A stretch of DNA of 64,000 nucleotides. Source: a virus. The DNA lies in the IMG/VR virus record IMGVR_UViG_3300020473_000013, positions 160,854 to 224,853 of that record. One strand, 5' to 3'. The position numbers were made by a program, and so were the translations under genes. The notes below the pieces were generated by a model. The model was given only the letters and a program-made list of their open reading frames with translations. It was not told the DNA's origin and made no database searches. Positions 35,825 to 38,453 of the stretch are shown one piece after another (the stretch's first letter is position 1; every line of letters begins with the position of its first letter).

Positions 35825-35833
35825 ATGTAAAGA
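35825..35833 (+). promoter_or_regulatory. TGTAAAGA motif inside the structured element before the homing endonuclease
   Basis: ATGTAAAGA is flanked by CACGAT and ATCGTG, which can pair. It may be a promoter or simply part of the folded RNA. Confidence 0.3.
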
Positions 35834-35838
35834 GTACA

Positions 35839-35902
35839 GGGTATCGTGAGGACAAGGCCGGCCAGCCCTGTCGCTTCCCTGAGTGACTAACTCACGGTAC
35901 CC
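35839..35902 (+). ncRNA. Structured RNA element A, upstream of homing endonuclease
   Basis: GGGTATCGTGAG (35839-35850) pairs with CTCACGGTACCC (35891-35902), giving a 12-bp stem with one wobble. Inside, GACA (35851) can pair with TGTC and GGC with GCC, and GAGTGACTAACTC forms another hairpin. The junction reads GAG|GACAAGGC on the left and CTAA|CTC on the right. Exactly this arrangement recurs in element B. A conserved RNA fold is inferred. No known class is assigned. Confidence 0.6.
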
Positions 35903-35929
35903 TTCTTATTGTTTCAGGGGACAATCATC

Positions 35930-36943
35930 ATGCGAAGCGATTTTTATGTCTATGCACTTCTCGATCCGAGAAAGCCAGGCAAGTACCGTTACGGTAAACT
36001 CAGGTTCGACTATGAACCGTTCTACGTCGGAAAAGGATGCGGTAAAAGGCACGACGCTCACTTCAAGGTAAATCCTTCGAAGGTCTACAACAAGTGGAAG
36101 GATCGGAAGATACGTCGCATTCAGAAAGAAACAGGAAGCGACCCTATCGTCCGTATTTTGAAACGCGACGTTGTAGAGTCAACTGCCTTCCGCCTCGAAG
36201 CTAAAGCCATAGGGCTGATAGGGCGCAAGGGATCAGGCCCTCTCACCAACCTTACAGACGGCGGTGAAGGAACATCTGGCAGAGTGGCTTCCGCTGCTCA
36301 GCGATTGAAGAATGCGGCTTCATGCCGTAGAGTTCGATTGACCATGCCTAAAGGTAGACAGCAGCTATGGTTCAAGAGAATATCCGAAGCCAGCAAGCGT
36401 AGAACGCTAGAAGAACGGGCAGCACTCAGCAAGCGGTATAGCGACATCCAGCACAACCTGCCGGAAGACGTTGACGCCAAACGCCGTGCAGCTCTATCCA
36501 AGTCGAACAAGCGGTACCGTGAATCTATGACGGAGGAACAACGCGAAGCCGAGTCGAGAACCCTGTCCAGTGCAGTCTCCCGATATTGGGAATCAGCATC
36601 CGACGAGGAACGAAAGTCTCGCAGCGACGCGATCCGCCGTGGGTATGCCTCAAAGGCCAGATCGGAAGTAGAAGCAAAGAACCAGAAGATTGCCAATGCC
36701 ATCAAGCAACAACACAGCTCAGCCTCTCCGTTTGACAAGCGGATGCGTAGCTTCAACGTGATGGCAGGTGTCATGGTTCGTAACAGCGTTAACTCTGGCG
36801 AGATTGATCCTGCCGATGCGGATACGATCAAGGCACGCCTCAAAGTGTCTGCCACCAAGTTCTACTCGAAAGAGCATAATTTGGAGCGTGAACCCAAAGC
36901 CCTTCGGGAAAAGGTTCGCAACGTTATCGCCCAGTATGCGTAG
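35930..36943 (+). CDS. GIY-YIG homing endonuclease
   Basis: This 337-residue protein has an N-terminal GIY-YIG domain with F-Y-V-Y-A-L-L-D and P-F-Y-V-G-K-G, a catalytic-region arginine/glutamate block (F-R-L-E-A) and L-T-N-L-T-D-G-G-E-G. It then has repeated basic helical DNA-binding segments (R-R-A-A-L-S-K and similar) across the C-terminal two thirds. The base composition is lower in GC and codon use is less C-biased than in the neighbouring capsid genes, a sign of transfer. It sits directly after the capsid gene, flanked by structured RNA elements A and B. It is a mobile gene that would cleave unoccupied cognate sites. Confidence 0.9.
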   Translation: MRSDFYVYALLDPRKPGKYRYGKLRFDYEPFYVGKGCGKRHDAHFKVNPSKVYNKWKDRKIRRIQKETGSDPIVRILKRDVVESTAFRLEAKAIGLIGRKGSGPLTNLTDGGEGTSGRVASAAQRLKNAASCRRVRLTMPKGRQQLWFKRISEASKRRTLEERAALSKRYSDIQHNLPEDVDAKRRAALSKSNKRYRESMTEEQREAESRTLSSAVSRYWESASDEERKSRSDAIRRGYASKARSEVEAKNQKIANAIKQQHSSASPFDKRMRSFNVMAGVMVRNSVNSGEIDPADADTIKARLKVSATKFYSKEHNLEREPKALREKVRNVIAQYA

Positions 36944-37234
36944 CCATAAATATCGCTTCGTGTGTTGATTTTTCCTGACCAATAGGAGGAGATAATATGT
37001 GCTTCTAACATTGGCAGGTATCTCCTAAAGATCATTGGTCGTTAGACCGCACCGAGTGCGAGCACCCTGCGAGGACAAAGCACCGTAGCTTTGATGCTGT
37101 CTAGTCACATGGATTCCAGCATCTAACTCGCAGGGCGCTCCCTTTCTCTCGGGTGATCTTGTGTCTTGGTCGTAGCAAGCTGTCACGCCCGGGAGCGACC
37201 TGCGGCCAAGATTGTGCAAAGGGAGGATAGTCCT
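36944..37234 (+). other. Non-coding, heavily structured 291-base region after the homing endonuclease
   Basis: No gene is seen. Several long complementarities are present: GACCAAT (36977) with ATTGGTC (37034), AGGAGATA (36987) with TATCTCCT (37019), GGTC-gtta-GACC, GCAC-cga-GTGC, element B at 37060-37140, and CTCTCGGG (37146) with CCCGGGAG (37188). TCTTGG can pair with CCAAGA across that last stem, giving a pseudoknot-like arrangement. It resembles a catalytic intron core in density of pairing, but I cannot fit a group I core with confidence. Confidence 0.55.
37060..37140 (+). ncRNA. Structured RNA element B, downstream of homing endonuclease
   Basis: GAGC-a-CCCTGCGAG (37060-37073) pairs with CTCGCAGGG-c-GCTC (37127-37140), about 13 bp with one mismatch. 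Inside, AAAGC-accgta-GCTTT forms a hairpin and GATGCTG pairs with CAGCATC. The junction GAG|GACAAAGC...CTAA|CTC matches element A. Different stem sequences with the same architecture are what covariation would produce. Confidence 0.6.
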
Positions 37235-37708
37235 GTGAATAAAGCGTGCGACCTTTTCGCACTAGCCATTACTGCCTTCAAGGAAGGTAAGTACGACTCC
37301 GCAGCTAAATTCTTCTCCTCCGCGATGGGGTCTGATGACCTCGACTCGTTCGTGAATGACATCGCCCGCAACGTTCCACGTTCGGCGCTCACGGGCCTTG
37401 TACCTTCTTCTGAAAACACACTGTCGCCGTCTCTGGCTTCTGCTGACTCTGAGGACCTTTCCTACATTGTCGAGCGGATCGAAGCTGGATTCCGGGCCGA
37501 GTGCTCTCTCCTTGATGAGGGTGATGAAGAAGCCGAGGTTCGAGCGTCCGATGAGGACGAGGATGATGACCTTGACGAGGAGGACGACCTCGACGATGAA
37601 GACGACGATGACCTCGATGCTGAGGACACGGAGTTGGATGACGAGGAAGACCACAACTCTGGTAAGATGAAGCTCACGGCGTCGGCTGGTCCTGTGCGAT
37701 TCAAGTAA
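37235..37708 (+). CDS. Acidic internal head protein-like (157 aa)
   Basis: The GTG start at 37235 has GGGAGG upstream. An in-frame start 69 bases earlier would run through the structured RNA. The protein has a helical N-terminus, then a long Asp/Glu run (about 105-145), and ends L-T-A-S-A-G-P-V-R-F-K. It also contains L-A-S and R-A-S sites. The T-A-S-A-G-P end matches the C-terminal region of the scaffold-like protein. Possibly a scaffold component or internal head protein processed by the same protease. Confidence 0.65.
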   Translation: MNKACDLFALAITAFKEGKYDSAAKFFSSAMGSDDLDSFVNDIARNVPRSALTGLVPSSENTLSPSLASADSEDLSYIVERIEAGFRAECSLLDEGDEEAEVRASDEDEDDDLDEEDDLDDEDDDDLDAEDTELDDEEDHNSGKMKLTASAGPVRFK

Positions 37709-37746: not shown

Positions 37747-37775
37747 GTATCCCTGCGATGTAAGGAGTACAGCTT

Positions 37776-38453
37776 ATGTCCGCGAAAGGAGAGGGTTTCG
37801 ATCTACTCGCCTCCATACGCAACGCGCAGACCCCACTGTTCCTGACGCTCACTGGCTTTCGGAAGTCCATGGCCAAGCATCTGGGGCTGACGATTCTGCC
37901 GTTCATCCTGCACGACAACCCAAAGGCTGTGATTCGACGCAGCCAGAACGCAGAATACCCGTACGGATACTTTCGTCTCAACTCGTTCGAGATCATGCGG
38001 GACCAGCAGGCGGTCAAGACTATTCGTCGGCACGGTTCGACCCGCTCGCTCGATGACATGACCAACGCGGCTATCAGCAAAGGCTACATGTTCCCGTGTA
38101 AGCTGATGGTGGAGCTCCACTTCATCCACAATGAGCCTAGAGAGGTGCTAGCGCTGATCGAGAAGGCTTCTATCCTTGGAGCAGTAGACGGGTTTTCATT
38201 CGAGGCCACTATGGAAGGCTCAACGCCGTGGACGGTAGGAGTCGCTATGGAGGAAGGTCCCGTCGAGATTCCGCAGGTGTCCCTTGAGGAGGAGTCTGAT
38301 GCTGCTGCATTCGACATCCAGTTCTCCTTCTCTATCACTTCTCGCGTCGGTGTCGTCAAGAGCGTGCCCAAGATCAACAACCAAGGCCACGTCACACGCA
38401 ACATCGGTGTGCCTGGCGCGGAGCCTGAGCCTTTTTCAGGAGGTGACCAATGA
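37776..38453 (+). CDS. Virion protein upstream of sheath (neck/tail candidate)
   Basis: This 225-residue protein is alpha/beta with a basic first half and an acidic loop near residue 165 (L-E-E-E-S-D), followed by a V-P-G-A-E-P-E-P tail. Four-base overlap with the next gene. Position between head and tail modules suggests a neck, terminator or tail completion protein, but I recognise no motif. Confidence 0.6.
   Translation: MSAKGEGFDLLASIRNAQTPLFLTLTGFRKSMAKHLGLTILPFILHDNPKAVIRRSQNAEYPYGYFRLNSFEIMRDQQAVKTIRRHGSTRSLDDMTNAAISKGYMFPCKLMVELHFIHNEPREVLALIEKASILGAVDGFSFEATMEGSTPWTVGVAMEEGPVEIPQVSLEEESDAAAFDIQFSFSITSRVGVVKSVPKINNQGHVTRNIGVPGAEPEPFSGGDQ

Follow-up and report, generated by a model that had tools for sequence, protein, structure and literature searches.

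The window analysed in this study, a stretch of viral DNA of 64,000 nucleotides, contains a small structured RNA, element A, upstream of a GIY-YIG homing endonuclease gene. Its fold is a three-way junction, and its covarying homologues in phages make up a family that has no entry in Rfam 15 and is apparently new. Element A is best read, with a probability of roughly 0.83, as a leader in which a pseudoknot between the P3 loop and the Shine-Dalgarno sequence would block translation of the endonuclease, and as a module inherited with such enzymes. The features of the locus are as follows.

35838-35903, + strand: element A, putative three-way-junction leader RNA of the endonuclease gene (fold, match to covariance model R2, covarying homologues)
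35838-35850 / 35891-35903, + strand: P1, 13 bp
35851-35855, + strand: J1/2, GACAA, conserved junction (family consensus GACAR)
35856-35867, + strand: P2 hairpin GGC(CGGCCA)GCC with palindromic loop GGCC
between P2 (35856-35867) and P3 (35870-35887), + strand: CU junction
35870-35887, + strand: P3 hairpin, with the anti-Shine-Dalgarno held by loop and inner stem
35875-35882, + strand: anti-Shine-Dalgarno UUCCCUGA, 8-bp match to 35914-35921
35888-35890, + strand: UAA junction
35914-35921, + strand: endonuclease Shine-Dalgarno UCAGGGGA, predicted target of sequestration (cis complementarity against permuted partners)
35914-35955, + strand: long-range pairing, 5' arm, running from the endonuclease Shine-Dalgarno through the start codon into the first codons (duplex energy)
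35930-36943, + strand: GIY-YIG homing endonuclease gene, 337 aa, start ATG 35930 (PHROG 314 homing endonuclease, E=6e-7)
36938-36978, + strand: long-range pairing, 3' arm, across and just past the endonuclease stop codon (duplex energy)

Element A and the endonuclease locus

A sequence-only reading of this DNA had proposed two elements with identical junction strings, A and B, on either side of the endonuclease gene. Both are present at the positions it gave and both fold stably, with ViennaRNA z-scores of -3.9 for element A and -5.2 for element B. The string GAGGACAARGC-N-CTAACTC occurs in the whole 224,853-base contig only at these two elements, and a reversed control is absent. A descriptor of the form 'P1 closing on GACAR ... 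UWA' scored 21.8 for element A and 21.5 for element B; the best score was no higher than 16.0 in all 200 dinucleotide-shuffled 64-kb windows. The junction letters GACAR, YU and UWA proved to be family-wide, but the GAG/CTC at the base of P1, which had been counted among the identical strings, is not conserved in the family. A near repeat, GATGTAARGAGTACAG, was noticed at 35825-35840, ahead of element A, and at 37758-37773, where it forms the ribosome-binding region of a gene at 37776.

The endonuclease gene, whose ATG lies 26 nt from the 3' strand of P1, follows the major capsid gene and precedes a small acidic gene. The same endonuclease occupies the same site in three other phage contigs, L031 (63% identical), L365/L294 (58%) and L032 (46%). 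Element A is present in all three, its P1 and P3 helices altered yet still paired, and GACAA-GGCNGGCCNGCC is nearly fixed across the four loci. The P2 hairpin of element A recurs in L031, L365, L313, L298 and others. The P3 region and the Shine-Dalgarno sequence covary in the homologues, reading CCCCUGA/UCAGGGG in L031, CCCCUAG/CUAGGGG in L365 and CCCUA/UAGGG in L032. In element A the anti-Shine-Dalgarno takes letters of the inner P3 stem besides the 4-nt loop, and P3 and the pseudoknot therefore partly compete.

A further pairing of about 40 nt connects the start region of the endonuclease gene with the sequence at its end. The duplex energy is -50.7 kcal/mol in the window, against -18.0 +/- 3.5 for shuffled sequences, and it ranges from -51 to -59 kcal/mol in the window and the three homologues, against about -17 when shuffled. 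Each arm finds its best partner in its own locus in 4 of 4 cases, and cross-pairing between homologues is weaker. In this subfamily the pairing may constitute a second layer of silencing or, possibly, a site for RNase III.

The RNA family, its neighbouring genes and element B

Neither the window nor the family members matched any RNA class in Rfam, intron and ribozyme models included, at gathering or loose thresholds. The statement of the sequence-only reading that the fold suits neither a tRNA nor a hammerhead agrees with this result, since neither ARAGORN nor Rfam gave a tRNA match, and the junction letters are unlike the CUGAUGA / GAAA core of the hammerhead, for which Rfam also gave no match. 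Other GIY-YIG loci carry a similar junction upstream, of the form P1-GACAG-P2-UU-P3-UUA-P1', and the family fold can be written as P1-GACAR-P2-YU-P3-UWA-P1', in which conservation falls on the junction letters.

A pattern scan of viral contigs returned at least 120 stretches, with 59 distinct cores having all three helices among the matches listed. A covariance model, R1, was built from 29 of the pattern-scan cores, with GACAG/UUA fixed. It detects the element in six GIY-YIG loci whose retrieval had relied on their proteins only, and finds several copies per genome in large phages. In an alignment of 82 distinct sequences, fitted to the model, all 16 pairs vary and both partners differ in 361 cells, where slid registers give 53-98; since the two innermost pairs of P1 and some of P3 are set by the patterns, the free evidence for covariation comes mainly from outer P1 and P2. 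J1/2 is nearly invariant, save for its last letter, in alignments A1, A2 and A9, a conservation that is partly imposed because GACAR was part of the search patterns, and much of the data set was collected by patterns fixing the junction letters.

Element A itself was not found by R1, because that model fixes GACAG/UUA. Bridging sequences have the P2 hairpin of element A together with GACAG or UUA. A second model, R2, was made from these and related members, leaving out element A, L031, L294 and L032. It finds element A with 40.6 bits and E=2.2e-8 in the 64-kb window (a rough E-value from a short calibration), then L031 and L294, and L032 weakly. R2 also matches Pseudomonas phage PaBG (NC_022096.1, 138294-138349, minus strand), where the member lies 30 nt upstream of the annotated HNH endonuclease gp297, its P3 loop CUCUGAA facing the Shine-Dalgarno UUCAGAG, and where J1/2 is GAAAA, not GACAR. 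PaBG is a cultivable phage of the P. aeruginosa laboratory strain PAO1.

The string with which the two elements had been recognised gave 28 stretches in viral contigs, mostly by chance, and among them P1 extends as in the window only in L015, from the same contig as L031. At E<=0.5 there was no R1 or R2 match in T4, Aeh1, Aeromonas phage 25, KVP40, SPO1, P-SSM2, G, RaK2, CP220, NCTB, Mater, S-PM2, BcepSaruman or Deifobo; weak R1 matches, with E of 0.5-1.7, came from RaK2, BcepSaruman and S-SRM01. Bacterial genomes gave 66 pattern matches, of which about 6-8 are convincing by R1, and the family is therefore regarded as essentially viral. A weak partial R1 match (E=3.4) was seen at L034 1145-1183, away from the endonuclease there. 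No description of the family was found in the open-access literature, although the thousands of unnamed candidates in one survey may include it (PMC8040213).

Dozens of members are followed, after about 20-35 nt, by a phage homing endonuclease gene. The enzymes that start after the RNA are of unrelated types, namely GIY-YIG, HNH, endonuclease VII and DUF723-like, and the genes ending ahead of it are mixed, with many tail sheath genes among them. Among 20 further start-proximal proteins, 19 had PHROG matches, nearly all to homing, HNH or endonuclease VII proteins. In the 224-kb phage G008, 7 of 7 copies precede an endonuclease-like ORF, some of these judged by start sequence only. Two full copies are present in contig L096, and a large homing-endonuclease-like ORF follows each. 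Near-identical RNAs stand in front of different nucleases (L298, L317). L185 retains the RNA and the first codons of an endonuclease gene that has been lost, which suggests that the RNA arrived together with the gene. The proposal of an undescribed RNA travelling with the GIY-YIG gene thus holds for element A, which has covarying homologues and no Rfam match, but not as a restriction to GIY-YIG, the RNA accompanying many homing endonuclease types. The module is not exclusive to endonucleases either, since an RNA with a P3/Shine-Dalgarno match also precedes DnaD-like/Lin1244-type replication initiator genes with no endonuclease present (L125, L143, L136, L161, L180, L144). A T4-type late promoter motif, TATAAATA, occurs directly before P1 in 22 of 79 members, against 0.5 expected.

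Element B and the region behind it comprise the following features.

37060-37140, + strand: element B, second three-way junction, sharing its junction letters with element A (fold z, descriptor score)
37060-37073 / 37127-37140, + strand: P1, 14 positions with one mismatch
between P1 (37060-37073) and P2 (37079-37090), + strand: GACAA junction
37079-37090, + strand: P2
between P2 (37079-37090) and P3 (37093-37123), + strand: UU junction
37093-37123, + strand: P3
37124-37126, + strand: UAA junction
37138-37145, + strand: possible anti-Shine-Dalgarno CUCCCUUU of the next gene, 8-bp match to 37218-37225, overlapping the 3' edge of element B
37218-37246, + strand: downstream gene, with Shine-Dalgarno AAAGGGAG at 37218-37225 and GTG start at 37235

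The junction-letter match of element B is above chance, and the same letters stand in a three-way fold on both sides of the gene, as had been claimed; element B nevertheless lies outside the family model, with nothing up to E=5 against R2 and 4.4 bits against R1 with filters off. Its P3 loop does not match the Shine-Dalgarno, a UCACA/UGUGA pairing at the start codon being the only one found, and by reading it is absent from the three syntenic homologues (L031, L365/L294, L032). The idea that elements A and B are two ends of one mobile unit was rejected, since element B is missing at those three loci and has no R2 match and no P3-loop/Shine-Dalgarno match. The TCTTGG/CCAAGA pairing, taken before for a possible pseudoknot, exists but belongs to an ordinary hairpin, 37164-37176 with 37199-37211. 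The homologues of the downstream gene in L031 and L365 begin at the same codon. Its Shine-Dalgarno has a complement some 70-80 nt ahead of it (CUCCCUUU/AAAGGGAG), and an analogous pair, CUCCUUAGU/ACUGAGGAG, was read before this gene near 2110-2175 of L031.

Loop complementarity and competing explanations

The cis form of the RNA, in which the element precedes the endonuclease on the same strand, was represented by 51 members. Complementarity of P3 to the Shine-Dalgarno amounted to 17.4, against 12.9 +/- 0.34 with swapped partners, a value reached in 0 of 5000 permutations; in element A the pair is UUCCCUGA/UCAGGGGA, the P3 region against its own Shine-Dalgarno. As a control, the P2 loop of the same 51 members showed no enrichment against the Shine-Dalgarno. 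The P2 loops of the cis form instead contain palindromes: 30 of 36 do so, where shuffled sequences give 13.5 +/- 2.7, and copies within phage G008 mostly differ in this palindrome. The P3/Shine-Dalgarno match and palindromic P2 loops were also seen, by eye, in three G008 copies that do not belong to the pattern set. Palindromes that differ between copies suggest self-specific kissing dimers.

In an antisense form of 13-14 members (among them L183, L038, L045, L211, L095, L102, L107, L172, L094 and L092) element and endonuclease are on opposite strands. Here it is the P2 loop that matches the endonuclease Shine-Dalgarno, with 19.4 against 12.6 +/- 0.93, and the coding-strand copy is not enriched (11.9 against 12.2). 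T4-type promoter motifs were noticed on both sides in several of these members.

Translational silencing of the endonuclease is the likely function of the family, as judged from these sequences. Element A would be the 5' leader of the endonuclease mRNA, folding into a three-way junction that displays two hairpin loops. The P3 loop would pair with the Shine-Dalgarno of the gene, some 30 nt downstream, and the resulting pseudoknot would bar ribosomes from the endonuclease start until the structure is opened. Two copies of the same RNA would probably kiss through their self-complementary P2 loops, and in the antisense form the same scaffold, made from the opposite strand with a P2 loop matching the endonuclease Shine-Dalgarno, could act in trans. 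The module probably moves and is passed on together with homing endonucleases, whatever their nuclease type, each of which would therefore be silenced by its own address-matched leader.

The conservation of single-stranded junction letters might also reflect a bound partner. Were GACAR, YU and UWA to bind a small molecule or ion, stabilising or releasing the P3/Shine-Dalgarno pseudoknot, the RNA would be a riboswitch. A three-way junction with a Shine-Dalgarno pseudoknot is a common riboswitch plan, which the fold matches; the unpaired letters are near-invariant across very different phages, and endonucleases and replication initiators have the RNA in common. However, the gene context points to no ligand, the antisense form has the same junction though it targets a gene on the opposite strand, the palindromic P2 loops would be left unexplained, and the GAAAA of PaBG indicates that the junction is not fully invariant; a riboswitch is considered unlikely. 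A phage or host protein binding the junction, so that the RNA serves as a translational operator comparable with those of T4 RegA and gp32, is a little less probable again: phages do use such repressors (PMC3014915), but the same RNA is found in unrelated phages and an unsystematic look noticed no accompanying conserved protein gene.

Two other explanations dispense with a leader. The inverted repeats could be a DNA site for cleavage, nicking or recombination by the endonuclease, with an incidental RNA fold, and the position at the edge of an inserted gene, the palindromic P2 and the occurrence of both orientations relative to the endonuclease would suit this. It is nonetheless improbable, given that the orientation-specific pairings (P3 in cis, P2 in antisense) fit RNA, and that the element is common to unrelated nucleases yet its helix sequences differ copy by copy. 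The suggestion that elements A and B are halves of an altered or split group I intron drew on the two similar structures flanking the gene and on the frequent location of GIY-YIG genes within introns. It has hardly any credibility left: no group I or group II model matched, Rfam intron models remaining unmatched even at E up to 10, neither the capsid ORF upstream nor the ORF downstream is interrupted and both are collinear with L031, L032 and L365, element B is missing from the three homologues, and element A, complete by itself, recurs alone in dozens of places.

Relation to known systems and significance

Sequestration of ribosome-binding sites by hairpins is known for the phage homing endonucleases I-TevI, I-TevII, I-TevIII, T4 segB and Aeh1 mobE (PMC2988022, PMC3014915). 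The target is the same here, the Shine-Dalgarno of a homing endonuclease, by sequence and via the P3 loop, as is the presumed purpose of keeping the enzyme low or late, and late promoters are likewise nearby. Those structures are simple hairpins described gene by gene, whereas the present family combines a conserved three-way junction, its junction letters fixed, with a predicted loop-Shine-Dalgarno pseudoknot and a palindromic second loop; T4, Aeh1 and Aeromonas phage 25 are unmatched by R1 and R2. In I-TevI the late promoter is placed so that late mRNA lacks the hairpin, whereas in relatives of element A TATAAATA stands just before P1 and, with start sites predicted from this motif, the whole leader would be kept. 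The principle of sequestration is thus known (I-TevI, segB, mobE), and the RNA family appears to be new; as far as could be searched, the conserved junction, loop-Shine-Dalgarno pseudoknot, palindromic loop and antisense form are missing from the literature on T4-type hairpins.

The kissing loops of retroviral dimer initiation sites (DIS) contain 6-nt palindromes in a hairpin loop, as do the P2 loops, one family member having GUGCAC, but the biology is different and dimerisation of the phage RNA is presumed. HEARO / IscB-type RNAs are structured RNAs that recurrently adjoin an endonuclease gene, as the present family does; the latter differs in being a small leader with Shine-Dalgarno complementarity, common to several nuclease types and without an Rfam match. 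CfrI of cyanophage S-PM2, an antisense RNA linked to a homing endonuclease gene and proposed to concern psbA and intron spread (PMC12197685), resembles the antisense form in adjoining such a gene, but S-PM2 is matched by neither R1 nor R2.

Phages commonly carry homing endonucleases as selfish genes, and what keeps these from damaging their hosts has been worked out for individual genes only. An RNA module shared by many unrelated endonucleases would give a general answer to this restraint, and would also serve as a marker for finding endonucleases and as a natural loop-programmable translational switch. The use of one scaffold for a cis leader and an antisense RNA, together with the palindromic loops, leads to direct and simple predictions. 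More tentatively, and with the odds somewhat against it, the scaffold may be an address-programmable silencer common to unrelated phages and endonucleases, in which P3 blocks its own ribosome-binding site, a locus-specific homodimer formed through the palindromic P2 loop senses how much of its own mRNA is present, the antisense P2 acts in trans and selfish endonucleases swap the module. If true, this silencer would be a mobile control module exchanged by selfish endonuclease genes.
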